64,000 nt of DNA from Phycisphaerae bacterium (lineage in GTDB: Bacteria > Planctomycetota > Phycisphaerae > UBA1845 > UTPLA1), in contig JAHBXN010000012.1 of NCBI GenBank assembly GCA_019636475.1, positions 1 through 64,000 of the forward strand. Direction: 5' to 3'. Both the position numbers and the translations under genes were made by a program. Of this stretch, positions 1-63,260 are shown piece after piece (position 1 is the first letter of the stretch; the number at the start of each line of letters is the position of its first letter). Below the pieces are notes generated by a model, which worked only from the letters and a program-made list of their open reading frames with translations, searched no databases and was not told the DNA's origin.

Positions 1-312
1 GGGTTCCTTCTGATAGTGAAAGGTAGCATTGCGAAATAGCCGCAAACGATCGACGAATGGCGACGCGAGGAGCGCGTCGAGTTTTGCGTCGCGCAGTCTT
101 AAGTCCCTCCAGCCCTCTATTGTTAGGTACAGACCTGAGTATGAATAGCTCAGATAGATGCCGGGTTCAGAGTAGAAAAACAGCACAAGCGATGCTTCAT
201 CTCGCATAAACTCCTGTAGCGATTCTTCAGAGAGGGAATTGCGAAAGAGCTTGCGCATTTGTGCAGCATACGCAAAGTAACGATACAAGGTAATGATCTC
301 AAGCTTCGGCAT
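1..312 (-). CDS. Hypothetical protein, C-terminally cut by window edge, HEPN-like RNxxxH motif
   Basis: An open frame runs from an ATG at 312 to the window edge without a stop, giving 104 residues. A GAGG lies about 10 nt before the ATG. It starts 12 nt after the stop codon of the gene at 325-1086 on the same strand, so the two are probably co-transcribed. The visible part is rich in aromatic residues (LFFYSEPG, LSYSYSGLY) and contains RNATFH at residues 94-99. That fits the R-[N/D/H]-x3-H motif of HEPN ribonucleases, which is short and can occur by chance. I do not recognise a named family. A HEPN-type toxin or defence nuclease is a guess. Confidence 0.6.
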   Translation of the reverse strand, partial: MPKLEIITLYRYFAYAAQMRKLFRNSLSEESLQEFMRDEASLVLFFYSEPGIYLSYSYSGLYLTIEGWRDLRLRDAKLDALLASPFVDRLRLFRNATFHYQKEP

Positions 313-5500: not shown

Positions 5501-5568
5501 TCATGCGCAATACCACGCTGTCTCCGGTTCATCGACCACGGCACACGACGCCCCACTGCTACGTCCAC

Positions 5569-6903
5569 CTATCGCTTCAGCGCGTCCTGCATCAATGTGA
5601 TCGACTCTTCGATGATCTCGGGACGGATGTCCAGCACGGGTCGCAGGCGGATCGACCGATCTCCGCTTCTTAGAACGAGCAGCCCACTCGCGAAGCAGTT
5701 ACGCCAGAATCGGTTGCGAGTCTCGGCATCGGCCATATCGAACGCCAACAACAGGCCACGACCGCGAACTGTGGTGATCTGCGGCGTCGAATCGGCAAGT
5801 CGGCTGAGCTTGTCCAGGAAGAGTTGACCCATCTCCCGGGCGTTTTCAACGAGCCCCTCCTTCTCGACGATATCGAGATAGTGTGTCGATCGGACCATGT
5901 CCGTGAAGTTGCCGCCCCAGGTGGAATTGATGCGGCTGGGCTTTCGCCACACATTGTCCTTTACTTCGTCGAGACGTGCCCCTGCCATGACACCGCAGAC
6001 CTGCGCCTTCTTTCCGAAGCAGAGCAGATCCGGAGTCACGCCGAAGTGCTGGTAACACCAGTTCCGACCCGTTACGCCCATGCCCGACTGCACCTCGTCG
6101 AATATCAGCAGCATTTCGTGCTCATCGGCGATGCGGCGCAGCGTTTCGAACCACTCCTTTCGAAAGTGCCGGTCGCCGCCCTCGCCCTGTATCGGCTCGA
6201 TGATGATCGCACAGATGCGATGCGGCCGCGATGCAATGGCCTTCATGATTTCCGCTTCGGACTGCTTCTCATCCGCGACGGCTTTCTCCACCCTCCGCGG
6301 TTCAGGCAGAGAAAAATCAATCGCCGGCGAACTGACACGCGGCCAATCGAACTTCGCGAAGTAGGCTGTCTTGTTTGGATCCGTGTTTGTCAAAGACATT
6401 GTGTACCCGGATCGGCCGTGGAAGCAGTGCCGCAGATGCAACACCTCCGTCCCGATTTCGCCGCGACCGGCTGCCAGATTCTTCTGCACCTTCCAATCCA
6501 TCGCGGCCTTGAGCGCATTCTCGACGGCCAGCGCCCCGCCTTCAATGAAAAACAACTTCGGCAATTCCGGCGTACCCACGACACGAACAAACGTGTTCAC
6601 GAACCTCGCCATCTGGACGCTGTAGACATCGGAATTCGCTACTTTGATCGAAGCTGCCGCGAGCAAATCGTCCTGAACTTCCGATCGCTGGAAATGCGGA
6701 TGGTTGAACCCGACGGGCATGGATGCATAGAAGCTATACAGATCAATGAGCGAACGATCAGAGTGTGCGTCATAAAGCCGACATCCGTGACTTCGCTCCA
6801 GATCGACGACAATCTCGAAGCCGTCGACGAGTATGTGCTTCTTGAGTTCGGCAAGAACGTTGGTCGGATTGATCTTGGCGGCAGTCGGGGATTGAGTTCG
6901 CAT
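5569..6903 (-). CDS. lat: L-lysine 6-transaminase
   Basis: The 444-aa protein is a class III PLP aminotransferase closely matching L-lysine epsilon-aminotransferase, which moves the 6-amino group of lysine to 2-oxoglutarate, giving aminoadipate semialdehyde (piperideine-6-carboxylate). Visible family points are FIEGGALAVENALKAA, the metal-free PLP Asp in LLIFDEVQSG, the PLP lysine block LLCFGKKAQVCG, and STWGGNFTDMVR. The length matches the family. The start at 6903 is preferred because GGAG lies seven bases upstream; an ATG at 6918 lies before that site. No lysine pathway partners lie nearby, so a role in lysine degradation or osmolyte/secondary metabolism is open. Confidence 0.9.
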   Translation of the reverse strand: MRTQSPTAAKINPTNVLAELKKHILVDGFEIVVDLERSHGCRLYDAHSDRSLIDLYSFYASMPVGFNHPHFQRSEVQDDLLAAASIKVANSDVYSVQMARFVNTFVRVVGTPELPKLFFIEGGALAVENALKAAMDWKVQKNLAAGRGEIGTEVLHLRHCFHGRSGYTMSLTNTDPNKTAYFAKFDWPRVSSPAIDFSLPEPRRVEKAVADEKQSEAEIMKAIASRPHRICAIIIEPIQGEGGDRHFRKEWFETLRRIADEHEMLLIFDEVQSGMGVTGRNWCYQHFGVTPDLLCFGKKAQVCGVMAGARLDEVKDNVWRKPSRINSTWGGNFTDMVRSTHYLDIVEKEGLVENAREMGQLFLDKLSRLADSTPQITTVRGRGLLLAFDMADAETRNRFWRNCFASGLLVLRSGDRSIRLRPVLDIRPEIIEESITLMQDALKR

Positions 6904-6918
6904 TGGACATCTCCACAT

Positions 6919-7587
6919 ACCAATGGCCTTCGCATGGGCTGACGCCAGGCGAGGCGACGGAAAAAGTCTGATTCGCAGGGATTGTTGACGAATTGATCGG
7001 CTTGAAAGCCGCTGCGTCTCTGAACAAGGCGACGCGCAGGCCGAAGCAAAATTGCAATCATTCGCGGCGCATTGTCACGGGATGGCCCGAGGGGCGCTCA
7101 TTCGTTGAAGATTTTGGACATGAAGTCCGCGTGGCCGATTGTGTGCCTGCGCGCGAGCACGCCGAACCAGCGACGGATGCCGTGTTGCCAGCACTGAATC
7201 AGGTGTGCCGTGAGTTGTTCGGAAGCGCCAATCACAAGCCACTCCGTGGCAAATCGAAGCCCGCGTGCGAACCGCCGCTCCCCGTCTCCGTGAATTCAAT
7301 TCAGACTTCACGGATTCGAACGCGGAATGGCGATCCGTCCGAACGGACATTCGTAGCATTACCTCGATATTCTATCGACAGGCAGGTTGAGGGGTCAAAC
7401 ATGATGGGATCGGAAGCAGGGCCTTTCCGGGGCAAACCCGGTCCGAAATTCTTGTGCGAACCATCCACACGGAGTAAGGTCCATCTCGCTTTTCTTGCCG
7501 CCCGCGCGGCTACCCATCGACCGCAGCGGAGCATCTGGATAATCAGGGACTCGGTTCCGACTGGGCCGTTCCCGGGGAAGATTCGAC
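6919..7587. other. Intergenic region of about 670 bp
   Basis: Open frames exist on both strands here, but none has a recognisable protein or a good start site, and they overlap each other. The region should contain promoters for the divergent aminotransferase and metallo-fold genes. No RNA gene or repeat was recognised. Confidence 0.4.
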
Positions 7588-8322
7588 ATGACATCGATCA
7601 ACGAGATATCACCCGGCATCCATCGGATCAGCATCCTCTACCCCGAGATCAACCTGCAATTCAATCACTTCCTGGTGGTTGATGAGGAGCCACTGCTCTA
7701 CCACACCGGTATGCGGCGCATGTTTCCGGAGGTGCTGGAAGCGGTGCGACATGTGATCGACCCCGCCACGCTCCGCTGGATCGGGTTCGGCCACTTCGAA
7801 GTGGACGAATGCGGTTCGCTCAATGAGTGGCTTAAGGTTGCACCGCAGGCACAGGCTGTTTCGGGTGTGGTCGGATCACTGGTGAATCTCAACGACTACG
7901 CCGACCGTCCGCCTCGAGTGCTAACGCCGGACGACACGCTGGTCACCGGCGCTTTCCGCTTCAGACACCAGCCAACGCCGCACCTGCCGCACGGATGGGA
8001 CGCAGGCGTGCTTTTCGAGGAGACGCAGCGCGTGTTGTTCTGTGGCGATCTGTTCACGCACAACGGCGACGTAGAACCTCTGACCGATTCGGATGTTCTC
8101 GGGCGAACGCGCGAGTCGCTCGCCGCATTTCAGGCCGGGCCGCTGATGGACTACATGCCCTATACACCGAACACGCGCCCCCTGCTGGAGGGACTGGCCG
8201 CGCTTCGCCCCAAAACGCTGGCGATCATGCACGGCAGCTCGTACCGAGGTGACTGCGCGGGGGCCCTTCTCGACTTGGACGGCGTGATGAAGGAGATGCT
8301 CGGATCGCCGACGCACCGATGA
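7588..8322 (+). CDS. Metallo-beta-lactamase-fold protein of the flavodiiron (ODP) type
   Basis: The 244-aa protein starts with ISPGIHRISILYPEI and carries the diiron ligand pattern of flavodiiron proteins: GHFEVDECG (H-x-E-x-D), a later histidine in PTPHLPHG, aspartate in VLFCGDLF and histidine in AIMHGSSYRGD. In the family this site reduces oxygen or nitric oxide, usually with an FMN flavodoxin domain in the same chain. Here the flavodoxin part is missing, so the protein would need a separate electron donor, or it may be a sensor or hydrolase. The ATG at 7588 follows a GGGGAAG. It stands alone with no operon partner. The fold is clear; the reaction is inferred. Confidence 0.8.
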   Translation: MTSINEISPGIHRISILYPEINLQFNHFLVVDEEPLLYHTGMRRMFPEVLEAVRHVIDPATLRWIGFGHFEVDECGSLNEWLKVAPQAQAVSGVVGSLVNLNDYADRPPRVLTPDDTLVTGAFRFRHQPTPHLPHGWDAGVLFEETQRVLFCGDLFTHNGDVEPLTDSDVLGRTRESLAAFQAGPLMDYMPYTPNTRPLLEGLAALRPKTLAIMHGSSYRGDCAGALLDLDGVMKEMLGSPTHR

Positions 8323-8722
8323 GCATCCTCGGCAAACCGCGGAATGCCATTCCGCGCGGCTCACCTGCACGGCATCCGCCTGAAGTTCCCCGCCGTATCG
8401 AGTTTCCTGTGCGAACCGTTCTGTCGGCAGACTGTCGCGCCGAATCCCCGATCGACCGAGCGCCCCGGTGAGCGCGTCGACGGGCTTTCTCGTTGAGCAA
8501 ACCGGACCAGCACGATCGAGGATGGATTTTTAAGAGCGGTCTTGGCTTGAGCATCTTCGGCGATTTCTCGTCTGGCTCGGGCTTTCACGGATGGCGTCGT
8601 GTTCGAGCAAAGTTTGTGTTTCGACTTTTCTCGACGGCGCTCAGCCTGTCCACGGCATCGGTATTTTGCGGCGCCGGTCGAGAAGTCGTGGGTAAATTCG
8701 AGTTCGACACCCTATGCCGAGA
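8323..8722. other. Intergenic region of 400 bp between convergent genes
   Basis: This lies between the stops of two convergent genes. No gene, hairpin-plus-T-tract terminator or repeat was recognised. Confidence 0.4.
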
Positions 8723-9427
8723 TTATGCTCCGATGTAACGAGTCTTGAACGCGACTTCGCGGACCGCGCCCCGGTATACGTCAAGCCGATAACATCTTGC
8801 GCCGAGCCTGGAGCCGATACACGCGTGAATTCTCACGCCGATGTAGTGAATGGCCGCCCAGTCATCCGCGGCGACCCCCGCTGCCAGTCCGTCCCGCAAC
8901 AGCTGGTGATAAGTCGGCCGACGGTCCTTCTCGCCATCGTAGTGCGGACACGCGCTACCGCGAAGGAATCCGAGTCCGTCGCGGATCGCCGAAAGCGGTC
9001 GCCCGAACGAGTCGGTCACCCCGCTCTCAAACCAGCACAACATCCCCGCGCTCACTCCGGTGAGCACGATTCCGCGTCGCCACGCCTCGCCCAACACACG
9101 ATCAACTCCATGGGCGCGCCAAACGGCCAGCATGTTCGCCGTGTTGCCTCCACCCACGTAGATCACGTCCTGCGACAGCAGAAACTCGCGGATATCGTTT
9201 CGCGGCACGCCGAAAAGCCGAAGATGCGACGCCTCCGCGCGCTTCGCCGGAAACGCTTCGTGAAATCTCACTATGTTATCGCGATTGTCACCTCCGGCAG
9301 TCGGCAGAAAGCAGATGCGCGGCCGGCGCTTTCGCGCGAGTGACAATGTGTAATCGTCCAACGGGCAGTCCCCGGCAGCCATGAGGAATCCGCCCCCTCC
9401 CATTGCGACAATCTGCCTTTTCGCCAT
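8723..9427 (-). CDS. Peptidase E-like serine peptidase (family S51)
   Basis: The 234-aa cytoplasmic protein has the S51 dipeptidase E layout. It opens with a glycine-rich MGGGGF segment, followed by FLPTAGGD, the YVGGGNTANML strand, the nucleophile Ser in LTGVSAGML, and CPHYDGE. Family members cleave Asp-X dipeptides or, in the cyanophycinase branch, aspartyl-arginine storage polymer. The length fits peptidase E rather than cyanophycinase. Both flanking genes are unrelated, and this gene is convergent with the metallo-fold gene. The exact substrate cannot be read from sequence. Confidence 0.85.
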   Translation of the reverse strand: MAKRQIVAMGGGGFLMAAGDCPLDDYTLSLARKRRPRICFLPTAGGDNRDNIVRFHEAFPAKRAEASHLRLFGVPRNDIREFLLSQDVIYVGGGNTANMLAVWRAHGVDRVLGEAWRRGIVLTGVSAGMLCWFESGVTDSFGRPLSAIRDGLGFLRGSACPHYDGEKDRRPTYHQLLRDGLAAGVAADDWAAIHYIGVRIHACIGSRLGARCYRLDVYRGAVREVAFKTRYIGA

Positions 9428-51791: not shown

Positions 51792-53035
51792 GCCTGCCGC
51801 CTCCCGGCCGGTGCAGCACATTCTCGAATGGCTTCTTCGAACACGCTCGCCAACTCCGTCGCAATCATGCGTCGATCGAATCGGGCGAAGGCCGTTTCAC
51901 GCGCGCGAGTGCCGATCGCGCGGCGTTCATCGGGATGATCCGCCCATCGCTCGATTCGAGCGGCGAGGTCCGCGGCATCGCCGGGCTTCGACGCGACGCC
52001 GATTCCGGCGGATTCAACCAAATCGGCCGTGGTGCCCGCGAAATTCACGATTGTCGGCAGGCCGGCGAACATGTAGTCAAAAATCTTGTTGGGCGTGACC
52101 CAGCGCGGCCGGACAATCTGTTTGAGAATCATCAGGCCGATGTCAGCGGCCGCAAGAATGCCCGGGATCTGCAACTTCTGAACCGGTTCGAGCAGATGCA
52201 CATTCGTGAGGCCGCGGCGTTTGGCTTCATCGATCAGCACTGGACGCATCTTGCCTTCACCGATCAGCACGATGGCGATATCCGGCCGATGCCGAAGCAA
52301 CTCGGCTGCATCGAGCAACTGAGTCAGGCCGTTGGCATCGCCATGCGCGCCGGTATAGACGGCTTTGATCCGGCCATCGAGACCGCGGGCGTGCCAATAG
52401 TCGTGATCGGGCCTGACATCGCGGTAGAGCGACCCATCAGCGCCGAGCACGACCGTTCGCAGCTTCTCGGGCGGGAATCCGCGCTCAAGCAGCCGATCGT
52501 GAAAACCCCGCGAGACCAGAAGAATCCGCCGCGCCCGGGCATAGCAGAAACGCTCCAGCCATTCCCAGAATCGCGACTGCAAACCGGGTTTCATCCTGCC
52601 GGCAGCGATCAAATCCTCCGGCCAGAGATCCCTCACTTCGAAGATATAAGGAATTCGCTTCAGAGCAGCGGCGAGTCGAGCTGGAATGCCCACCGTCGGC
52701 GGCGTGCTCGTCGCGAAGATCAGATCGGCCTTTCCGGCACGCAGGGCAGCCCAGGTGGCCAGCATCGCGAACTTCAGCCACGCCCACATGCGCCCGGAGA
52801 CCGGCAGGCGGTTCGCATACCACGCATTGCACGCGATGACGCGGATACCGTCGATGTGGTGCGTCTGAAAGAGACGGTACCAGGGCATGCGCGGCAACGA
52901 ACTCTGGTCGTGCACACCGGTGATCATCGTGACCTGATGGCCCATTTCGATGAGGTAGCGCGAGACATCGTAGCTGCGTGTGGCGCTGGTGCCCTCGTTG
53001 GTCACGAAGTACTGATGAATATAGATGAGTCTCAT
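51788..53035 (-). CDS. Family 4 glycosyltransferase, WbuB-like
   Basis: The 415-aa GT-B enzyme starts LIYIHQYFVTNEGTSATRSYDVSRYL, a hallmark of the WbuB group, followed by EVRDLWPED, the donor strand AVYTGAHGDANGLTQLL, and the C-terminal TPNKIFDYMFAGLPTIV. WbuB transfers N-acetylfucosamine in O-antigen synthesis; the sugar here is not known. The gene overlaps the lyase-like gene upstream by 4 nt (ATGA) and the ATP-grasp gene downstream by 4 nt, making a tightly coupled three-gene operon. Confidence 0.9.
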   Translation of the reverse strand: MRLIYIHQYFVTNEGTSATRSYDVSRYLIEMGHQVTMITGVHDQSSLPRMPWYRLFQTHHIDGIRVIACNAWYANRLPVSGRMWAWLKFAMLATWAALRAGKADLIFATSTPPTVGIPARLAAALKRIPYIFEVRDLWPEDLIAAGRMKPGLQSRFWEWLERFCYARARRILLVSRGFHDRLLERGFPPEKLRTVVLGADGSLYRDVRPDHDYWHARGLDGRIKAVYTGAHGDANGLTQLLDAAELLRHRPDIAIVLIGEGKMRPVLIDEAKRRGLTNVHLLEPVQKLQIPGILAAADIGLMILKQIVRPRWVTPNKIFDYMFAGLPTIVNFAGTTADLVESAGIGVASKPGDAADLAARIERWADHPDERRAIGTRARETAFARFDRRMIATELASVFEEAIRECAAPAGRRQA

Positions 53036-55068
53036 GCGCGGGCGTCACTCCCCGGACTGATGCGCGTCACAATTCTTATCGGCAGGAGCACGCGGCCGTT
53101 CAGCTCGATCGTCGGCCGCGCGGACTTTTCGCCATAATATTCCGACTGCCAGCCCATCACGCCAGCGGAAGATTCGTCGCCGCGTCGTATGTCGATTCGC
53201 ATGTCGTCCGGCAGATCGAATGCGAAGCGAACCCTACCTCGCGGATGAATCAATTCGAGCCATCGCTGTTCCGCGTGCAGCACGAAGGGTGCATCGGCCA
53301 GATGCCACCGCAACACGACGGGGTGCTCTCCGATGCCGGTCAGGGAATCCGTGACGATCCACTCGCGGTCGGCCCGTAGTTCGACATCCCGGCGGTGCAC
53401 GACATTCCACGGATATCTGCTGTAGCCCTGGTGTTCTCCGGTCCACTGCGCCACCCCGTGGCGCACGCAGCGCGCTTCGGGCCAGGGCACCCATAGGAAT
53501 CGCGACGCCGGATCGAGCGGGCCGCGCCCGCCGATTTCGATGGTGTTATGCGCGGCGATGTCCTTGAAAAACTTCTCGAAGTGCGGAGTGTCCGGCGAAT
53601 AGTACAGAAACGACCCGCTGTCCGAGACGATATTCGCGCCCCGGTACCAGATGTCGAGATGAAGCGGATCGACATGCGCGGGCCGATCGCGGTAGCTGTG
53701 ACATCGGGCCATGCACCATGTATCCGAGCCGCGAATCGTGTAGTAGCCGCCGACATCGAAACGCGCGGAGACGGCGGGACGCGGCGTCGATGGAGACGAC
53801 GCAAACGCATCGCCGTAAAGCCAGACGGCCGCTTCGTCCCACGGCCCAGGCGGGAGAACGCGCGTTCCGGTCGCAGCGAACATCGCGGCCTGCACCACCG
53901 GGCGGAAATCGGTGTAGTCGCAGGAATCGAGCGGCAGAACGAGCGCGCCGTCGTTGCTGCCGTAATTCGGCACGCGGCCCGAGTCCGGATCGAGCATGCC
54001 AAGAAGGAACTCGCCCGCGAGCGCCACGCGACGACGGAGTTCAGCCGACAGCGGCGCGCCCGCCAATTCAGCAATCCGCATGGCCCAGAGGCAGTCATGC
54101 AGCATGACGCGATGATAGTTCATCGAGTGCTGTACGAAGCTGCCATCGTCGTAAATCTGCCGGGCGATTTCGCGCTCAAGCGTTTTTCGGCCGAGCGAAC
54201 GCCAGCCGGCCGAACGGCGAAGGAAGGGGAACAGCGTGCCGATGGTAAAAAGCCCGACGGCCTCGCTGATGCCGTGGTTGTTCTTCTGCGACACGGCGAA
54301 ATCGATATTCGCAGCGACCCGATCTGCGGTAATCGCAAGCATTTTGATCGCAAGATCGATGCGCGCCGGGGTGGTGGCCGACGATTTCCAGAACGCATGC
54401 AACGCGAAGATCCATGCGAAGGCTCGGAGCGAAGCCTCCTGCCCGCATTTCCAGTTCGGTCCCATGTTCGGCGGATTCTGCTCCACCCAGCTCTCGAACA
54501 ATCGCCAGTACGCTTCAGGAAACGTTTCATCTCCACTGAATGCGTACGCTCGCGCCAACCAGAACGCGCACGCGAAGCGCGAGGGCTCCCAGACCGTCTT
54601 CACATCGCCGAAGTCAGGTGAGAAGGTCGGATAGTCGCTCCAGTGCGTGCGGGCGTGATGGCTCGCCCTGGCGCCGGGGACGCGCAACCATTCGACCGGG
54701 CTGCCGTGGTCCACGAGCCTTCGGCTGTAGTAGAGGAACTTACCTGCCGCATAGTCGTGCGCGATGGCAAGGGTCTGAGCAACGCCGGCGCTGCCGGCCG
54801 TTTCGCGAAGCAGCGCGCGCTCGGGCATCCGTCCAGGGTCAAAAAGGAATCGCCCGATGTGTCGTTCGAGGGCATGCCCAAAATTTCCCGGATCGTTCGA
54901 TGTGGTCGAGCCAGGCAGATCAGCAAGTGAATAGCTCTCGATTGAGACCGCCGGCGTCGCGCGGCGCAGCGCACCCGAATTCTTTCGCAAGGCGTACCAG
55001 GCTCGATAGGCGACCCACCGGAGGCCCATGAGGCGGAGAACCTGTAGTTGTCGGCGGAGGCGGGTCAT
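53032..55068 (-). CDS. Heparinase II/III family protein
   Basis: The 678-aa protein has the heparinase II/III layout: an N-terminal helical toroid (WLRVPGA to NNHGISEAVGLFTIGTLFP) and a C-terminal beta-sandwich with HVDPLHLDIWYRGANIVSDSGSFLYY, NTIEIGG and LRADREWIVTDSLTG. Relatives are polysaccharide lyases that cut uronic-acid glycans, or polymerise-and-trim partners in surface polysaccharide loci. There is no signal peptide, so the protein may act in the cytoplasm or be exported another way. It is the first gene of the operon with the WbuB-like GT4 and ATP-grasp genes. Confidence 0.88.
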   Translation of the reverse strand: MTRLRRQLQVLRLMGLRWVAYRAWYALRKNSGALRRATPAVSIESYSLADLPGSTTSNDPGNFGHALERHIGRFLFDPGRMPERALLRETAGSAGVAQTLAIAHDYAAGKFLYYSRRLVDHGSPVEWLRVPGARASHHARTHWSDYPTFSPDFGDVKTVWEPSRFACAFWLARAYAFSGDETFPEAYWRLFESWVEQNPPNMGPNWKCGQEASLRAFAWIFALHAFWKSSATTPARIDLAIKMLAITADRVAANIDFAVSQKNNHGISEAVGLFTIGTLFPFLRRSAGWRSLGRKTLEREIARQIYDDGSFVQHSMNYHRVMLHDCLWAMRIAELAGAPLSAELRRRVALAGEFLLGMLDPDSGRVPNYGSNDGALVLPLDSCDYTDFRPVVQAAMFAATGTRVLPPGPWDEAAVWLYGDAFASSPSTPRPAVSARFDVGGYYTIRGSDTWCMARCHSYRDRPAHVDPLHLDIWYRGANIVSDSGSFLYYSPDTPHFEKFFKDIAAHNTIEIGGRGPLDPASRFLWVPWPEARCVRHGVAQWTGEHQGYSRYPWNVVHRRDVELRADREWIVTDSLTGIGEHPVVLRWHLADAPFVLHAEQRWLELIHPRGRVRFAFDLPDDMRIDIRRGDESSAGVMGWQSEYYGEKSARPTIELNGRVLLPIRIVTRISPGSDARA

Positions 55069-55253: not shown

Positions 55254-56993
55254 TCACGGGTTCGTGTAGGTGAAGTTTACGTGATTCACGCCGTGACACG
55301 TAAGCGTGCACGATCCGGAAAATCGGCCGGTGTCATTGAAGAACCGCCGGCCGCCGACGATTCGCAAATCGAAATTGATGAGTGCTGAATGCTGCGAACG
55401 CGGCCCGTTGACGCCGTGGGGCGCGTGGCAGGCGCTGCAGGGTGTCCGCGCATCGACCACATGCCGCCTGTGGAACGTGAAGCTCTCGTCGCCAAGAATG
55501 CTGTTACGGTCGTGGCACTGGTAGCACAGGGCGTATGCCTGTGCGGATTCGACCGTGAAGTCGGCCGTGTCGTATCGGTCCGCCAGCAGAAACTCGTATC
55601 GCGATCCATGCGGCCCATTCGGCCCACCGCCGCCGAGCTGTCGCGCGTCCGGATTGTTGTGACAATCCTGGCAACTGATGAAGGTCTTCTGCCGGGCCTG
55701 CGGGGTGAGGCTGGGCACTTCGTTCTGATTTCGAGCCTGCCGCGTGATGGGATGTGACGACGCGGCAGTGGCACTGAGTTCGCGACGAATGTTGCCCCAG
55801 TTGTCTCGCTGCCGAATAATGCGGCCGCGAACCGGCGCGGGATTATCCGAATGGCAGCGGAAGCAGACCTCGTAATAAAAATTGGCCCGCTCCGTCGGTG
55901 TGCCGGCGGACGTGATGCCTGCGACCTCCTGCATTGCCGGCGGGACGCGATTGCGCCCGATATCCCACTGCGAGAGCCTGCTGCCGAGCGGATCGTCGCG
56001 CACGGCATGCGGATTGTGACAATCGACGCAGTCCACGTGAATGCGCTGCATCAGCACGGACTCGGCGGGATCATGCGCGTCGCGCCAGCGCTGGACGCGA
56101 TGGCCGCTGCGCAGATTGGCGACACCCTGCATGTCTCGACCGAACAGGCCATTGTGACAATCCATGCACAGATCGTACGGACGGTCGTGAAGCAGCCGCT
56201 CGGGGTGGCCCGCGCTGTGTGCGGCATGACAGGAGCCGCAGGCATTCTCCGACAGAGACCGTCTCGCCGGCGACACGCCGTTATTCACGGTCGGCGGCAC
56301 GGAGCGATTGCTCAGGGCGTGAGCGCTCTGCCGCCAGCCCTTCATATCGTGACAGGTGATGCACAGCGTGCCCCGCTCATCGGTGACCCGCAGGAAGTTG
56401 CCTAGTTCGTTGTTGTGCGGATCGTGACAGGCCGTGCACTCCAGTTCACCGCGTGGGCCAAGTTTGATGTCGCGACTGACCAGATCGGGCGACCGGAGTT
56501 GCGGATCCCGATTGGACAACTGCCGATCGAAGCGAAAACCGATCGGATGATCGTCGGCCAGATTGTTCGTCAGGTTCGACGGCCCGCTCGGCATGAACGG
56601 CTGGTTCATCGTGATCGGATCGGTCGCGCCACGGCTCTGCACAAGGCCCAGCGCAATGCTGCCGTCGTGACACGACAGGCACATCTTGCTGGCGGGGCCG
56701 GGCTGATCGATGCGGGCGTCGGTCGTTGAGCTTGAATAAATCCGGTAATACGTCGTCGGGTTATATCGATTCCACAGCGGCGTCTGCGGATCCGTCCGGT
56801 GCGGAGCGTGACAGAAGATGCACACTTCGTCTTCGTGAAGCGCTCGAACCGTTCCCGGACCTGTCGCCGACAAATTATGCTTCGAATTGACGACCGACTG
56901 ATCGGCGCGCGCCTGCCCGCCGTGCGCGAAGGCAAACGCCCAGCCGGCAACGAACAAAATGACTTCAGTGCGGCAACCCATCGCGCGCATCAT
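55254..56993 (-). CDS. Exported 11-heme multiheme cytochrome c (plus a CX3CH site)
   Basis: The 579-aa protein has a signal peptide (VILFVAGWAFAFAHGGQARA) and eleven CXXCH heme-binding sites, starting near residues 58, 105, 186, 211, 252, 276, 322, 377, 441, 490 and 519. A twelfth site, CTLTCH (562-567), has three residues between the cysteines. Several are followed by x-PH (CIFCHAPH, CSACHAPH) and occur in pairs, as in doubled CXXCH cytochromes. It should be a periplasmic or outer-surface electron carrier. It starts with a 4-nt overlap (ATGA) from the NHL-propeller gene, the third gene of the barrel-propeller-cytochrome operon. Confidence 0.93.
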   Translation of the reverse strand: MMRAMGCRTEVILFVAGWAFAFAHGGQARADQSVVNSKHNLSATGPGTVRALHEDEVCIFCHAPHRTDPQTPLWNRYNPTTYYRIYSSSTTDARIDQPGPASKMCLSCHDGSIALGLVQSRGATDPITMNQPFMPSGPSNLTNNLADDHPIGFRFDRQLSNRDPQLRSPDLVSRDIKLGPRGELECTACHDPHNNELGNFLRVTDERGTLCITCHDMKGWRQSAHALSNRSVPPTVNNGVSPARRSLSENACGSCHAAHSAGHPERLLHDRPYDLCMDCHNGLFGRDMQGVANLRSGHRVQRWRDAHDPAESVLMQRIHVDCVDCHNPHAVRDDPLGSRLSQWDIGRNRVPPAMQEVAGITSAGTPTERANFYYEVCFRCHSDNPAPVRGRIIRQRDNWGNIRRELSATAASSHPITRQARNQNEVPSLTPQARQKTFISCQDCHNNPDARQLGGGGPNGPHGSRYEFLLADRYDTADFTVESAQAYALCYQCHDRNSILGDESFTFHRRHVVDARTPCSACHAPHGVNGPRSQHSALINFDLRIVGGRRFFNDTGRFSGSCTLTCHGVNHVNFTYTNP

Positions 56994-58042
56994 TGTCCCT
57001 CCTCACGAAGATATTGGAAGACCTGAATGCGCCGATTGTAGGTGTCCGCAACCCAGATTCGATCCTGCGAATCAATCGAGATGCCGGACGGCAGACTGAA
57101 CTGACCGGGCCCGTCGCCCTCTTCGCCGAACGCGAGCAGCAGGCGTCCATCCGGCTCGAAAATCTGCACATTCTCGAACTGGCTGTCCAGGACATACAGG
57201 TGTCCGTCGGAATCCACAGCGACATCGCGCGGCAATGCGAAATCGCCGGCCGAATCGCCCTTGCGTCCGAACATTCGAACCGGCTCGGCCGCAGATTCGC
57301 TCGCCTCGGCGTCGAAGAACTGCACCCGAAAATTCATCGAATCCGCAATGACCGCGCCAAGGCGTGCATCCATCGTCAGACCAGCCGCGAAATTGAACTG
57401 CCCGGGGCCGCCGCCGCGCGTGCCAAAACGCCGGACGACCTGTCCATCCCGATCAAAGACGATGACCGCGTGCAGGGCGGCGTCAAGCACCCACCATTCG
57501 CCCGACGCCCGCCGATATGTCACGGCGCTGGGACGCTGAAGGAGCCCTTCACCGAACACGCGCCGAGTGCGGCCGTCCAGATCGAGCAGAAACACCGCCG
57601 ATCGTCCGCTGTCGCAAACGGCCAGGGTGTCATCTGCAAGGCACACATCGGCCGGCCACGCCAACGGTCCGCCGCCGGCACCTCGAATGGACTTGAAGGT
57701 CCGGGCCGCCAGGTCCAACTCATACACCGATCCGGCCTGGCCATCCGCGACATAGACGCGATCACCGCGCGCGGCGACGGCATTGGGCGTGACAAAGACC
57801 GCCTTCTCGATCGGCCCAGACAGTAATTCTCGAAACACCTCGCCGCCGGTCTTGCGGGCCTTCAGGCTGGCCTCGCCCGACAGCATTCCGATATAGCGAA
57901 TCCGAGGCGCGTCCGGTGGGGCCGGCCACACGAGCGCGCCGCGACCGTCGGACTGCTCAAAAATCGGCTGCTGAGGCTGCTGGCAGGCACAGAACGCCCC
58001 GGACACGAAAAGGGCAAGGACAAATCGAAGACGTCGCGTCAT
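56990..58042 (-). CDS. NHL-repeat beta-propeller lipoprotein
   Basis: The 350-aa protein has a signal sequence with a lipobox-like FCAC. A beta-propeller of repeated NHL units follows: NAVAARGDRVYVADGQAGSVYELD, FALPRDVAVDSDGHLYVLDS, and FSLPSGISIDSQDRIWVADTYNRRIQVF. NHL propellers mediate protein-protein contacts. ATG 58042 gives ATGA overlap with the barrel gene, and its stop overlaps the cytochrome gene by 4 nt; an in-frame start at 58093 would extend into the barrel gene. The tight coupling suggests it bridges barrel and cytochrome, which is inference. Confidence 0.88.
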   Translation of the reverse strand: MTRRLRFVLALFVSGAFCACQQPQQPIFEQSDGRGALVWPAPPDAPRIRYIGMLSGEASLKARKTGGEVFRELLSGPIEKAVFVTPNAVAARGDRVYVADGQAGSVYELDLAARTFKSIRGAGGGPLAWPADVCLADDTLAVCDSGRSAVFLLDLDGRTRRVFGEGLLQRPSAVTYRRASGEWWVLDAALHAVIVFDRDGQVVRRFGTRGGGPGQFNFAAGLTMDARLGAVIADSMNFRVQFFDAEASESAAEPVRMFGRKGDSAGDFALPRDVAVDSDGHLYVLDSQFENVQIFEPDGRLLLAFGEEGDGPGQFSLPSGISIDSQDRIWVADTYNRRIQVFQYLREEGQ

Positions 58043-60327
58043 CGCTGAGCCCGCCTTTCGACAATCGGAATGTCTCGCCGCAGCTTGATCCATATCGCGG
58101 CGGAATTGTCCGTCGATGACGGCAGGTCGAGCATATCATACTCCGCTTCAACAAGCAGAGAGAATTTGCCGATCTTGTATGCAACGGATGCCGTGATATC
58201 GACACCGTTGGTCTCTCCAAAGAGCGAATCATTCTGGAAGCGATACATCGCGGACGCGTTCGCCTCCAGATTGGTCGAGAGCGTGTAGCGATAGTTCAGA
58301 CCGAAGTCGAGCAGCGACGTCTGGCGTGGATCGAAATAACCCCCGCCGCGAAATCGGTAGTAAGAGTAGCTGCCGCGGGCATCCAGCTCCTGAATGGCGC
58401 TGCGATGAAGCACCAGATCCGCATTCAGGTGAGCCGCCTTGTACGGGTCGATATTGTCGTCGTGATACTCGAGTTCGCTCCCTGTTGACCACCGTGGACG
58501 CTTGTAGGTCAGTCCGACGCGATGCCGATTGATATCCCGCTCACGATAAGTCAGGTATCGGCGACGGCTGACATCCTCATCCTGCAGCGTGCCGGCGTAA
58601 TAGACATCAAGCCCCTTCAAGAGTTCCTGCTGAACACGGTAATCGACCCGATCCCGGCTGGTCTGAAAGTCATCGTACGATTCATAACGATAACTCACGA
58701 GCACCGTGTCCCCGTCCCGGATCCGTCCCGTCGGAACCCGGCCCAGCAGCGTGACATCGCCATTCGTGAATACCCAGTAATCGGTACCCGGGACAAGGAA
58801 TTCGCCGCGCTCGGCGCCGCGCACCAGGATGCTGAACGGCTGCACACGGGTCTGTGTCAGAAACGAGGGCAGCGGATCGCGAAATGTCACCGACTCGTCG
58901 ATAACGACGCCACCCGTCTGGCCATCACCCATGCGCGAGTTTGTATGCTGGTAAGTCAGATTGGAGGAAAATTTCCCAAGCCGGTTGTCGCGGGTGAAGG
59001 AGAAATCGGCCGTCGCGCCCCACTCGGTGATGTCGCCGACTTCGTTTGCATTTCGTCGAAGGGCATAGGCTCCGAAGTTGCTGACGAGGAAATCCTCCCA
59101 TTCGTGGGTCAATCCCACATCTCCCCGATAGGTATCGGTCTCAAGTCGTCCGTATGACTCCTTCAGATACTGCGCGCGATAGGTGGAGTAAAGGGATTCG
59201 GTATGCTGTAGTCGAAGGTTCTCCGACACCTCGAACGAATCCCGCTGCAGATCGCCGGCCTCGTCCTCCATACGAATCAACGACTCGATCCGGCTGCGAT
59301 TGTCACGTCCGAAATGGATCGTGTCAGTCAGGGCGAGGTAGTTTCGCGTCGTGTTGAACGTGTTCCGCGTGCCGGAATACTGCTCGTTGCGACGCTCGTA
59401 CTCATACTCCACATTCAAGGTGTGGGCGTCGGATTGATTCCAGGTCGCTTCATAACGCAGTGTATCTTCGCCGCGCTCCTCGTCGTCATACAGGCCGCGC
59501 GATCGACTCGTGACGTCGTCGAACAAATGCTCATAGGTGAGCGACATCGGCAGCTTCGGATCATTCAGGTACACGCCGCCGCCGTAGCGTTCACGGCGTC
59601 GATCCAGGCTCGGAAGGAACGGCCGCGGCACGCGATCGTTCAACTGCGAGGCAAAGGCCGACGCAGACACCTTGCCGGCCGGAAATAGCTGCATGCTCAG
59701 GTCATATTCAAATAACTCGCCGTCCGGACTTCGATGCAGATCGATCCCCGGCCGCGATTCCCAGAATTCCTCCTGCGAAAGCCCGAAGCGCATCATCGCA
59801 TCGTAGAGCAGGACTTTTTCATCGATGAGGCTGCCGGATGCATCAAGTCCGACCGATTCCAGAATTGAGTACCGCTTGTTCTTCTGGGCAAAGCGCGGCC
59901 GGAACGCGTTGTACGCGTCCGTGCGTACGGTTCGACGCTCAGCGACGCTGTCCAGGCCGAGCGACATATTCAGTTCATCAAGGCTCATCGGCCCGCGCGG
60001 GCTGGTCGAAGAACGCGATCGGCGGCGTAAGCCCGGCCGATTGATTCGATCGGTCGAACCCTCATCGCGCTCGTCAGACGAATCGGCGCCGTTCTGTGTC
60101 GGATCAGGCTCCGATCCGTCGGCACCGCCATTCTCCGAGCCCGATTCGGCGGATGACAGGTCGTCCTCGGCGGGCGGCGAGTTCTCAGCGCGCGTTCCTT
60201 CGTTCTCTGCATTTCGCGTCGGAGTAGACGCCGGTTGATCGCCAAGCCCGGTGGATACTCCGAGGAGGCTCGTGACCGCGATCATGATGACGAGCCGATG
60301 GAGCACCGCGCCGTCCGTGAATATCAA
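58039..60327 (-). CDS. Predicted outer-membrane beta-barrel protein of a porin-cytochrome operon
   Basis: The 762-aa protein has an N-terminal signal sequence (LVIMIAVTSLLGVSTGLG). An acidic low-complexity linker (about 30-95) and a short helical region (MSLDELNMSLGLDS) follow. After about residue 190 it is made of many alternating amphipathic strands (e.g. TLNVEYEYERRNEQYSG, WSTGSELEYHDDN, ALIVEAEYDML-like LLVEAEYDMLDLP) typical of large outer-membrane barrels. It is not an obvious MtrB or OmbB by eye. Its position first in an operon with propeller and multiheme genes suggests a sheath for electron transfer. The start is uncertain (TTG 60327 or GTG 60306). Confidence 0.75.
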   Translation of the reverse strand: MIFTDGAVLHRLVIMIAVTSLLGVSTGLGDQPASTPTRNAENEGTRAENSPPAEDDLSSAESGSENGGADGSEPDPTQNGADSSDERDEGSTDRINRPGLRRRSRSSTSPRGPMSLDELNMSLGLDSVAERRTVRTDAYNAFRPRFAQKNKRYSILESVGLDASGSLIDEKVLLYDAMMRFGLSQEEFWESRPGIDLHRSPDGELFEYDLSMQLFPAGKVSASAFASQLNDRVPRPFLPSLDRRRERYGGGVYLNDPKLPMSLTYEHLFDDVTSRSRGLYDDEERGEDTLRYEATWNQSDAHTLNVEYEYERRNEQYSGTRNTFNTTRNYLALTDTIHFGRDNRSRIESLIRMEDEAGDLQRDSFEVSENLRLQHTESLYSTYRAQYLKESYGRLETDTYRGDVGLTHEWEDFLVSNFGAYALRRNANEVGDITEWGATADFSFTRDNRLGKFSSNLTYQHTNSRMGDGQTGGVVIDESVTFRDPLPSFLTQTRVQPFSILVRGAERGEFLVPGTDYWVFTNGDVTLLGRVPTGRIRDGDTVLVSYRYESYDDFQTSRDRVDYRVQQELLKGLDVYYAGTLQDEDVSRRRYLTYRERDINRHRVGLTYKRPRWSTGSELEYHDDNIDPYKAAHLNADLVLHRSAIQELDARGSYSYYRFRGGGYFDPRQTSLLDFGLNYRYTLSTNLEANASAMYRFQNDSLFGETNGVDITASVAYKIGKFSLLVEAEYDMLDLPSSTDNSAAIWIKLRRDIPIVERRAQR

Positions 60328-60440
60328 TCAGAGGGTCGAAGTGACAAGCACGCGACAGGCTATTTATACCGACGAAGCCTGTCCAGCGAGAATATCCGCA
60401 CGAGTCGCATTTTGGAATGCAGTGAGTATACTTCCGCACT

Positions 60441-60462
60441 ACCCGCGAAAAAATATGCGGGT
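60441..60462. promoter_or_regulatory. Inverted repeat between the divergent barrel and tetraheme genes
   Basis: ACCCGC and GCGGGT are separated by ten bases, GAAAAAATAT. The repeat lies between the divergent operon starts (60327 and 60503), where a shared regulator could act. TATACT at 60427-60432 could be a -10 box, but no good -35 partner is evident. Function is inferred from position and symmetry. Confidence 0.35.
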
Positions 60463-60502
60463 ATTCTCACGGTCTGGTCGACGCCCGCACCGGGGCCCGC
60501 AC

Positions 60503-61183
60503 ATGAATAAGAACTCGCGACATCCGTTCAATACCATGCTGCTGCTTTGCGGCGCATCCCTTCTCATTATCGGCGTGACGATCTCCTGCGGCGACAAAGA
60601 TACCGCACCCATCGAGAACAGCGATTCGACCTCCGCCGGCAGCAAGCTCGGCGGCGTCTCTGAGACAGAGGTCCTCTACTCAGCCGGGCTGGTCGGCAGT
60701 CGACACGATTTCACCCAGCAAGGCGATCGATCGCTCGATCTCTGCACACCCTGCCACACACCGCACCTCCCCCTGCCGCGCGGCGCCGGCGTCGGCGAGG
60801 AAGACCGAGGTCGCCTGGTCTCCTATCAGGCCGATGGCGTCGAGCTTGATGGAGCGTCGCTGCTGTGCCTGAGTTGCCACGATGGGGTCATCGCCAGCGA
60901 CGTCTATACCGCCTCCCATGCGACCACATTCGCCGCCCAATTCGGAACTTCGCGACTCGGCACCGCTTTGCTCGCGGGGCATCCGATCGGCGTGAAGTAC
61001 CCGGCAACCGAATCGACCTATCGAGCACCGGCCGCCGTCACGGCCGACGGACGTATCAAGTTGCCCGACGGAAGGGTTCAGTGCATTTCGTGTCACGATC
61101 CGCACAACACCGGACGACATGAGGGCATGCTGGTGAAGTCCAACAGCGGCAGCCGACTGTGTCTCGCCTGCCATCGCCTGTAG
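60503..61183 (+). CDS. Tetraheme cytochrome c lipoprotein
   Basis: The 226-aa protein has a lipoprotein signal ending at TISC (Cys29). Four CXXCH sites follow (about 81, 122, 194 and 220), the third as CISCHDPH, the same xPH pattern as the 11-heme protein. It should be anchored in the outer membrane or its inner leaflet and pass electrons. ATG 60503 is preferred because the signal sequence begins there; longer frames upstream cross the shared promoter region. It starts the divergent operon and is followed 16 bp later by the NHL-octaheme gene. Confidence 0.88.
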   Translation: MNKNSRHPFNTMLLLCGASLLIIGVTISCGDKDTAPIENSDSTSAGSKLGGVSETEVLYSAGLVGSRHDFTQQGDRSLDLCTPCHTPHLPLPRGAGVGEEDRGRLVSYQADGVELDGASLLCLSCHDGVIASDVYTASHATTFAAQFGTSRLGTALLAGHPIGVKYPATESTYRAPAAVTADGRIKLPDGRVQCISCHDPHNTGRHEGMLVKSNSGSRLCLACHRL

Positions 61184-61199
61184 AAAACGAATCCTTCAA

Positions 61200-63260
61200 G
61201 TGACACCAAGCACTGTGAGGCGAGGATTGATTAGTTCGTCAGGAGCGCAGGGCATCGGCCGACGCGCCTGCATTGCAGGCGCCCTGCTCGTTGCCGCGCC
61301 CATGCTCCTGGCCATTCTCAACTGCCGCGAAGACGCGCAGCGCGTGACGCAGCGCCACGGTTCACACGACACCGCGCCGCACGGCGGCGGCCCCGTCATC
61401 GCTTACGGAAATCTCGTCGTCGCGGAACGCCCGAGCGAAACATCCATCGCGCTGTCGGAATTCTTCTTCGGAACCACGCCCGAAACTCCGCTCGGACTCA
61501 TCAAACCCGTGGCCATGGCACAGGTCGACGGAGCGATCTGGATCTGCGATTCCGCCCTGCGGACAATCTTCCGGTACGAGCCGCACTCCGGAAGATTCAA
61601 ACCGTTCGATTTCGGCGAGCTTGTTTCGCGGCCGGTCTCCATCGCATCAACCGAAAACGGACAACTGCTGATTACCGACGCCGGCGCAAAGGCGGTCATT
61701 CGATTCGACACCCGCGGCCGGGAAGTCGCTCGATATGCACTTCAGTCGGATTCGTTTAGTCCAGCCGCCTCGGTCGAGGTCGGCGATGCCGTCTGGGTCA
61801 GCAACACCGCAGCACACCGGCTCGAGGTTTTCAATGCAAAGACGGCACAGCACGTCCGGTCGATAGGGCATCGCGGCTCCGGTCGCGGCCAATTTGGCTC
61901 ACCGCTTGGCATGGCACGAACACCGCGAGGCACCGTGCTCGTCGTCGACATGCTCAATGACCGAGTGCAGGAACTCGACGCCGACGGCTCCTGGCGGCGA
62001 TACATCGGACGGCCCGGCGACCGGGTCGGCTGCTTCGGGCGGCCGAAGGATGTGGCAGTCGGACCGGACGGCACCATTTTCATCACCGATGCCGCATCGC
62101 AACGGGTTCATGCATTCGACGAAGCCGGCGGCGCTATGGCCGCGTTTGGCGGCGCTTCCGATCCGGTCACATCGATGAAAAGTTCGGGCCGAAAAGATCG
62201 AACGGCTCCCGCGCTGAGCGTGCCGAACGGGCTACTGATCTCCGACGACCCGACGCTCCTCGCGAATCTCGAGGAGAGTCCCCGCAAACCGAAATATGTC
62301 GTGCTGGTCGCCGAGCAAATTCGCCGTCCCGGAATTCGTGCCTTCGGCTGGCGCGGATTCGCCGATCGCGCCGCGGATGCCGGCGCATCGCGTCAAAGGT
62401 CGACAACATCGCTCGTGCAGGCGACCGTCGAAAATCCGCACTGGTCCGCCACCCGCTGCGACACATGTCATACGATGACCGGCCCGCAGGCCGCGCCCAT
62501 TCCAGTCGCCGACGTGGATGCAGGCTGCATTAAATGCCACGACGGCATACACGCGGTGGCCGAGGCCCATCCCGTTGGCCGCCCCGGAACGACGAACAAC
62601 ACAACCGTCCCGCAGGACTGGCCGTTGAATGAGGGCCGACTCGGCTGCCTCACCTGCCATGACGTCCGGCGTCATTGCGATGTCACATCGACCCGGCCCG
62701 CGCGAAACTCGGCGATGCTGAGAGGTTCAGGACTTGAGGGTTCCGTGAAGTTCTGCCTCCAGTGCCACGGCGACGCCGAGGCATGGCGGATCAGCCCGCA
62801 TCAACAGCTTGTCGCCAATGGCGTCGTTCGCGAAGAATCGTGTGCCTACTGCCACGCCGCAACGCCGACGCGACCCGCCGATGGTCATCGTACCGGCCAA
62901 CCGCAGCTACGAGCCGCCGGATCATCAATCTGCCTCGGCTGTCATTCCAAACACTGGGATTATTTTCCCGGCGGCCACCTCGGCCAGGCGGTCACCGGCA
63001 GGATTGCCGAACGACTGCTCGCCGCCCGCGCGGAATCCGCCATCGATTCATCGAGCTCCGATTCGGCTTCAACCCCGCCGGGTGCGGCATATCCGCTTGA
63101 TGAAGGCCGAGTCGCCTGCTACACCTGCCACAATCCTCATCAACGCGGCCTCTTCGCCGACAACACGCCGTTGGGCCATCAAGCGTCGCTGGAGGCGGAT
63201 GCAGCCTTCCTGCTGCGCGACGACCGCCAGGACCTGTGTCGAAACTGCCACGGCAAGTAG
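61200..63260 (+). CDS. NHL propeller fused to an octaheme cytochrome c domain
   Basis: The 686-aa protein has an N-terminal hydrophobic segment (ACIAGALLVAAPMLLAIL). An NHL-type propeller (about 95-345, e.g. FGSPLGMARTPRGTVLVVDMLNDRVQELD and FGRPKDVAVGPDGTIFITDAASQRVHAF) leads by a linker to a C-terminal cytochrome with eight CXXCH sites (about 420, 443, 483, 519, 548, 578, 640 and 680). The start is GTG 61200. The combination joins in one chain what the divergent operon has as separate propeller and multiheme proteins. Cell location and partners are not known; a periplasmic or outer-surface role in electron transfer is inferred. Confidence 0.9.
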   Translation: MTPSTVRRGLISSSGAQGIGRRACIAGALLVAAPMLLAILNCREDAQRVTQRHGSHDTAPHGGGPVIAYGNLVVAERPSETSIALSEFFFGTTPETPLGLIKPVAMAQVDGAIWICDSALRTIFRYEPHSGRFKPFDFGELVSRPVSIASTENGQLLITDAGAKAVIRFDTRGREVARYALQSDSFSPAASVEVGDAVWVSNTAAHRLEVFNAKTAQHVRSIGHRGSGRGQFGSPLGMARTPRGTVLVVDMLNDRVQELDADGSWRRYIGRPGDRVGCFGRPKDVAVGPDGTIFITDAASQRVHAFDEAGGAMAAFGGASDPVTSMKSSGRKDRTAPALSVPNGLLISDDPTLLANLEESPRKPKYVVLVAEQIRRPGIRAFGWRGFADRAADAGASRQRSTTSLVQATVENPHWSATRCDTCHTMTGPQAAPIPVADVDAGCIKCHDGIHAVAEAHPVGRPGTTNNTTVPQDWPLNEGRLGCLTCHDVRRHCDVTSTRPARNSAMLRGSGLEGSVKFCLQCHGDAEAWRISPHQQLVANGVVREESCAYCHAATPTRPADGHRTGQPQLRAAGSSICLGCHSKHWDYFPGGHLGQAVTGRIAERLLAARAESAIDSSSSDSASTPPGAAYPLDEGRVACYTCHNPHQRGLFADNTPLGHQASLEADAAFLLRDDRQDLCRNCHGK

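Follow-up and report, generated by a model that had tools for sequence, protein, structure and literature searches.

We analysed a 64,000-nucleotide stretch of DNA from a Phycisphaerae bacterium (Planctomycetota; assembly GCA_019636475.1, contig JAHBXN010000012.1, positions 1 to 64,000; henceforth the window), which carries at positions 55254-63260 a locus of multiheme cytochromes, propeller proteins and a predicted outer-membrane beta-barrel. A first-pass annotation, made from the sequence alone, had described five genes in two divergent operons at this place, and this layout is present. The minus-strand operon encodes a 579-residue cytochrome with 11 CXXCH motifs and one CX3CH motif (55254-56993), a heme-free 350-residue NHL propeller predicted to be a lipoprotein from the lipobox position in relatives (56990-58042), and a heme-free 762-residue protein predicted to form a barrel of about 30 strands (58039-60327). 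On the plus strand lie an OmcE-family tetraheme cytochrome with four CXXCH motifs, also a predicted lipoprotein, with a spacer before its GSRHDF motif (60503-61183), and a 686-residue NHL propeller fused, by Pfam matches, to a domain with eight CXXCH motifs (61200-63260). The intergenic region between both operons spans 60328-60502 if the tetraheme gene starts at the ATG at 60503, which is likely, its listed open reading frame (ORF) beginning at 60251. The heme pattern TGY-N6-TGYCAY matches 25 times in the window, 23 of them inside the locus, against a chance expectation of 3.6 in the window, and none of 100 shuffles reached 25. The minus-strand operon does have the claimed 4-nt overlap at each of its two junctions, provided that the NHL gene begins at 58042, a likelier start than 58093, to which its ORF reaches.

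Two of the products are OmcE-family members: the tetraheme cytochrome, and the 12-heme protein in its N-terminal third. A profile of 16 twelve-heme proteins matched two PDB chains over positions of about 18-218: 7tfs (E 1.1e-43), by its title the OmcE nanowire of Geobacter sulfurreducens (GSU0618), and 9yuq (E 1.4e-33). In the structural model of the 12-heme protein, residues 38-216 matched 7tfs with a Z score of 11.2 and a root-mean-square deviation (rmsd) of 2.7 over 168 aligned residues, the next match having Z 4.0. This tetraheme domain (residues ~38-216, minus strand, window positions ~56346-56882) is followed by an eight-heme domain of seven CXXCH motifs and the terminal CX3CH, which forms the twelfth heme site. 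The separate tetraheme cytochrome alone gave weak matches to the same two chains (9yuq, E 4.1e-5; 7tfs, E 2.7e-4). Its identity to OmcE is 25% over 159 positions and that of the 12-heme domain 34% over 180, and each has its four CXXCH motifs and four axial histidines in the order found in OmcE. Among family models, PF22113 (domains II/IV of MtrC/MtrF) scored above its cut-off in the 12-heme protein, and the NCBIfam models for DmsE/MtrA and OmcA/MtrC scored far below theirs.

The heme ligands of these domains are strongly conserved in relatives. We aligned rows chosen for four CXXCH motifs and the motif of the first axial histidine, so that the conservation of these features is by construction; that of the three other axial histidines is not. 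The latter (OmcE core positions 32, 123 and 182) are each kept in 45 of 45 twelve-heme rows, and in 42 of 44, 44 of 44 and 44 of 44 tetraheme rows. Across the whole 12-heme protein, the twelve motif histidines and fourteen further histidines are invariant in 44 rows. The kinship of the C-terminal eight-heme domain is less clear: hhalign gave 96 to 99.5% probability against all six heme-rich sets, the N-terminal part of the same protein included, and thus says nothing specific. An hhalign alignment of this domain with the 10-heme protein of Geobacter-type clusters reaches near both C-terminal ends, which is a lead only.

The 45 twelve-heme domains group as a single clade in a tree of 107 OmcE domains (support 100/96; recovered in 99% of 200 bootstrap trees), and the OmcE/eight-heme fusion thus seemingly arose once. 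The rows came from 44 of the 120 loci L031-L150 (15 and 29, taken for diversity), 16 loci from the OmcE search described below, the window and the two PDB chains. The separate tetrahemes form a grade, with OmcE and 9yuq placed among the Geobacter-type OmcE rows. Compared with the other rows of the tree, the 12-heme domain of the window reaches a top identity of 82% and its tetraheme 61%, so the tetraheme seems to change faster. A bin labelled Rhodospirillales (L127) has the cassette and groups with Nitrospirota in this tree, pointing to either transfer or a mislabelled bin.

The 762-residue product is predicted to be an outer-membrane beta-barrel, as the first-pass annotation had proposed. Neither Pfam nor NCBIfam gave a match for it up to E 0.1, and its profile found no sequence match among PDB chains up to E 1. 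AlphaFold2, run with a 62-row alignment, returned a model with a mean predicted local distance difference test score (pLDDT) of 85.2 and a predicted template modeling score of 0.78, in which we counted by hand 30 strands of at least 10 residues between positions 114 and 756; the N-terminal linker is of low confidence and the TTG start is uncertain. Among the best 50 of 813 Foldseek matches, all are outer-membrane proteins by title, with LptD at the top and MtrB, FimD and TonB receptors also present, and template modeling scores on the query run from 0.23 to 0.35. A VIA comparison placed MtrB first (Z 17.2, 446 aligned residues, rmsd 7.8), with CymA, BtuB and TonB receptors within one Z unit, and thus supports a barrel, not a particular family. 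Between strands 18 and 19 the model has a small insertion (residues 482-540; 58708-58884, minus strand) whose mean identity to the window sequence among relatives is 0.33, compared with 0.25 and 0.26 in strand regions. The one invariant column of the barrel alignment, D516, lies in it; Y517, G534 and I536 are near-invariant, and E478 and Y546 stand out at its edges. By the strand count of the model, this insertion would be a periplasmic turn or plug and might be a docking place.

We then asked how the genes travel together. A first scan of genome contigs with the barrel alone yielded 15 stretches that fit a pattern and no relative. Within the same family and order, a barrel relative is present in 79 of 101 genomes, the window's own genome counted, and 40 places fetched from these matches (the order loci) hold the 12-heme gene in 37, a heme-free NHL gene in 36 and the tetraheme gene in 32; some of them are cut by a contig end, and partners are absent from L064 and other loci that would have room for them. 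The NHL and octaheme domains are fused as in the window in 10 of the 40, all from the window's own family and family f4, and lie in separate neighbouring genes in 5. A wider set was obtained with the 12-heme profile, which matched at least 588 stretches with at least 543 relatives at E ≤ 1e-3; we continued with the 80 best of these (the GTDB loci; a few come from the same genomes as order loci). Exactly 11 CXXCH and one CX3CH motif occur in the 12-heme proteins of 78 of these 80. An NHL gene (Pfam PF01436, E 3.4e-25 for the NHL protein of the window) lies directly upstream of the 12-heme gene in 73 of the 80, a barrel hit in any reading frame was found in 69, barrel, NHL and 12-heme genes are contiguous in 59, and the tetraheme gene is present in 56; homologues are thus not scattered without their propeller and cytochrome partners. 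Where no barrel hit was found (11 loci), the sequence ends within 1.8 kb upstream in five cases (L097, L120, L121, L132 and L140). Among the order loci, the 4-nt overlap recurs in 20 of 33 barrel/NHL pairs and 27 of 32 NHL/12-heme pairs; the GTDB loci, which derive partly from the same genomes, have it in 18 of 59 and 50 of 78 such pairs. The overlaps are therefore frequent, not universal.

By record title, the cassette occurs in Planctomycetota, several Desulfobacterota, Nitrospirota, Verrucomicrobiota, Lentisphaerota, Hydrogenedentota, KSB1, Calditrichota, Bacteroidota and one Rhodospirillales. Since nearly all carriers are metagenome bins, single taxon labels may be wrong; a carrier with a strain name is Desulforhopalus sp. 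IMCC35007. Few Planctomycetota have the 12-heme protein (21 of 392 sampled genomes at E ≤ 1e-60), and a plasmid collection held no match to it. Searched with the OmcE chain, seven genomes that contribute loci from other phyla all gave matches, in each case to at least one short frame (210-327 residues) and one of 12-heme size (560-708 residues); in G102, for example, identity to OmcE is 49% in the tetraheme frame and 42% in the frame of 12-heme size. In the phylum of Desulforhopalus, OmcE finds a match at E ≤ 1e-10 in 46 of 395 sampled genomes. Two barrel loci that differ in sequence occur in several genomes of family f8 (L069 and L058 in G091; L070 in G071), L069 and L070 having a co-directional layout with a pentaheme and a 13-heme or 11-heme companion. 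A protein with 13 CXXCH and one CX3CH motifs also recurs near the cassette (L040, L041, L096, L102 and others), and on visual comparison the CX3CH region at its C-terminus is similar to that of the 10-heme protein in Geobacter-type OmcE clusters.

A search of the same genome with PF09699 revealed one further multiheme locus (G000:C5, 135000-154900; L181), in which a 1171-residue protein made of an NHL propeller and 20 CXXCH motifs is divergent from an 11-heme protein (5566-9081 and 9155-11113 of L181). The 11-heme protein has an N-terminal NapC/NirT domain (PF03264, E 5.4e-10), a family whose role is quinol oxidation. Homologues of both genes lie within the stretches fetched around the cassette in L047 and L088, which ties the cassette to the quinone pool through gene neighbourhood alone. 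Around the locus in the window, no flanking gene seen hints at electron transfer. On the upstream side it adjoins a gene of the heparinase II/III family (53032-55068, minus strand), with more polysaccharide genes beyond, judged from translations alone. Immediately downstream is a 766-residue protein without a Pfam match (from 63695 on in the window; 2796-5096 of L182), accompanied by genes that, again from their translations, resemble a signal peptide peptidase and a pseudopilin.

To place the locus among known systems, we fetched 18 loci with OmcE relatives from Desulfobacterota-type genomes. Fifteen are Geobacter-type, with 42-64% identity to OmcE; the G. sulfurreducens genome itself was not met among the groups searched, where the best OmcE match was 64%. 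Of the other three, L190 and L196 hold a cassette of the window type and L195 neither arrangement. The Geobacter-type clusters are comparable to the window locus in that an NHL gene lies near the OmcE gene in all 15 and a large, heme-free, barrel-like-looking ORF of 737-807 residues follows the OmcE gene in all 15, directly or past the NHL gene. They differ in their cytochromes, with a separate eight-heme gene in the 15 loci, one for a 9- or 10-heme protein in 10 of them, larger cytochromes in 3 and no 12-heme fusion, and in the barrel-like ORF, which the window barrel profile does not match; hhalign gave an intermediate probability of 60% between this ORF and the window barrel. A further difference is that OmcE has an N-terminus without a lipobox, whereas the tetraheme of the window is probably a lipoprotein. 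Such NHL neighbours also appear in the literature, next to an OmcE homologue of Geoalkalibacter (PMC12016550) and with multiheme cytochromes in Desulfovibrio ferrophilus (DFE_0448-0451 and DFE_0461-0465), where outer-membrane electron exchange is proposed (PMC9769857); we liken the latter to our locus by description, and the same account states that deleting those cytochromes left Fe(III) oxide reduction unimpaired (PMC9769857). The first-pass annotation had singled out the propellers as what set this locus apart, a distinction that falls away, since NHL genes were already known beside OmcE and other surface cytochromes.

The osc (omcS companion) cluster is alike, by its description alone, in setting filament cytochrome genes beside proposed secretion and shaping partners. 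We take OscEFG to be channel-like and OscD to be propeller-like. For OmcS wires, roles have been proposed for OscH in folding, OscE/F/G in secretion and OscD in morphology (Shen et al., 2025, as related in PMC13194489). This cluster differs in its cytochrome, OmcS and OmcE being described as without sequence similarity in a passage of PMC12977616. MtrCAB, OmbB-OmaB-OmcB and ExtABCD, the first two of which had been the original comparison, likewise encode an outer-membrane barrel with multiheme cytochromes, and MtrB is the best, though tied, VIA match. That part of the comparison stands; however, the window barrel has no sequence match to solved chains and about 30 strands instead of the 26 of MtrB (PMC12133095), and the window adds the OmcE 12-heme fusion and the propellers. 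With an OmcE-family domain in two of its five proteins, the nearest known system shifts to the OmcE/OmcS nanowire clusters, and a plain MtrCAB analogy is set aside as the leading interpretation because of the OmcE homology. Among the titles and abstract beginnings that we looked through, which left the primary OmcE, Osc and nanowire-survey papers outside, we recognised no description of a cassette with the 12-heme fusion.

The OmcE homology points to a barrel/propeller module built around OmcE-type cytochromes, and on balance we lean toward the locus being both a trans-outer-membrane electron conduit and an assembly site for these cytochromes. From the computed barrel fold, homology, gene order, fusion and ligand histidines, we infer an arrangement in which the barrel of about 30 strands would hold the eight-heme part of the 12-heme protein, whose OmcE-like N-domain would expose, on one side, a heme stack of the nanowire type as a docking surface for the separate OmcE-like tetraheme. 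This tetraheme would be free, secreted and able in principle to polymerise in many relatives, and is probably lipid-anchored in the window's family. Assembly and docking might be the task of the two NHL proteins, the predicted lipoprotein and the propeller with the attached octaheme domain. Electrons might enter from the quinol pool via the NapC/NirT-type 11-heme protein encoded elsewhere in the genome; that the module conducts electrons at all, and in which direction, we likewise infer. A more specific version, which we hold tentatively and with some doubt, has the 12-heme protein as a base plate, an OmcE-type subunit fused to an eight-heme trans-barrel wire, such that a filament or a tethered unit would continue the heme stack through the outer membrane.

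Several observations weigh against a conduit and assembly site of this kind. The 15 Geobacter-type OmcE loci are without a 12-heme gene and have another barrel-like ORF; G. sulfurreducens OmcE is reported, in a passage of PMC13194489, as non-essential for current or Fe(III) oxide reduction; and the function of cytochrome filaments is itself disputed (PMC11077965). Six barrel-less loci have more than 6 kb of sequence upstream (L077, L089, L090, L091, L108 and L147), and tetraheme, NHL, pentaheme, barrel, NHL and 12-heme genes follow one another on one strand in just 17 of the 80 GTDB loci, the rest varying around this order. The 12-heme model is of medium confidence only (pLDDT 72) and without hemes, and its C-terminal domain gave no clear solved match in the fold search, by which a new fold is not shown either. 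Finally, 7 of the 10 tetraheme rows from the window's family carry a canonical lipobox followed by a spacer, and none of the 10 has the PLW motif found in many other tetraheme rows.

The lipobox bears on how far a filament could be expected. In many taxa the signal peptide of the tetraheme ends right before the GSxHDFS motif, as in OmcE. Within the window's family, L031, L033 and the window have a near-lipobox and L041 has none; a canonical lipobox was found in none of five rows of family f4 and in one of 17 from the rest of the order (L061, probably spurious). The window's own lipoboxes are non-canonical, T-I-S-C in the tetraheme and C-A-C in the NHL protein, and canonical ones stand in the corresponding place in several close relatives. 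These sequences suggest that the tetraheme probably gained a lipoprotein anchor in the window's family. Long free filaments are unlikely for a lipid-anchored OmcE unit, and so the window may encode a surface relay that evolved from a wire system; long filaments in this family are, on these sequences, uncertain.

The same anchor lends itself to another explanation, which we judge rather unlikely, in which the locus is a plain porin-cytochrome conduit: the 12-heme protein would span the barrel, the tetraheme lipoprotein would be the outer terminal, and the link to nanowires would be a shared domain only. Lipid-anchored outer cytochromes are typical of MtrC and OmcB, and both the lipobox with its spacer and the top VIA rank of MtrB fit this account. 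It sits less well with the many other taxa in which the tetraheme looks free and secreted, with a mature N-terminus at GSxHDFS, with the NHL partners that OmcE clusters also have, and with the retention of the OmcE axial histidines. The barrel could alternatively belong mainly to a secretion and assembly machine like OscEFG/OscD, exporting folded cytochromes with the 12-heme protein as nucleator instead of trans-membrane wire. The secretion and morphology partners described for OmcS wires (PMC13194489) are in keeping with this, as are a barrel that exceeds the 26 strands of MtrB (PMC12133095) and might pass a folded domain, and the long barrel-like-looking ORF after OmcE in every Geobacter-type locus. 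A pure export channel, however, has no need of a 12-heme protein with strictly kept ligands, and we consider such a machine improbable.

A surface redox enzyme complex built on the propellers and reducing a soluble or particulate substrate, which the first-pass annotation had offered as its alternative, seems to us very improbable. It could draw on the octaheme domain fused to a propeller and on weak fold matches of the 12-heme protein to hydrazine dehydrogenase, OcwA and hydroxylamine oxidoreductase; yet the Z scores of these matches, 3.0 to 4.0, lie in the range that the tool calls common, and no catalytic family scored above its cut-off in Pfam or NCBIfam. The twelve motif histidines and the fourteen further invariant ones moreover fit hemes that are all bis-histidine-ligated, which argues against an open catalytic heme.

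We conclude that the locus is a genuine outer-membrane module, conserved widely and built around OmcE-type cytochromes. With NHL genes known from OmcE clusters, the propellers are not its novelty; what look new are the fusion of an OmcE domain to an eight-heme domain and the very large barrel that often accompanies it. The fusion, with this barrel beside it in most loci, is the strongest new element. The mechanism of nanowire secretion and the anchoring of nanowires in the outer membrane are still called speculative in a 2025 review (PMC12307469), and a protein that joins a nanowire-type domain to an eight-heme domain, accompanied by a barrel in 69 of 80 loci, is a testable candidate for the joint between wire and outer membrane. 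If the 12-heme protein does act as a base plate, it would be a device for coupling filament to membrane common to several phyla. A limited look at the literature found little on extracellular electron transfer in planctomycetes. Many uncultured Phycisphaerae carry the cassette, which would suggest that planctomycete groups engage in extracellular electron transfer.

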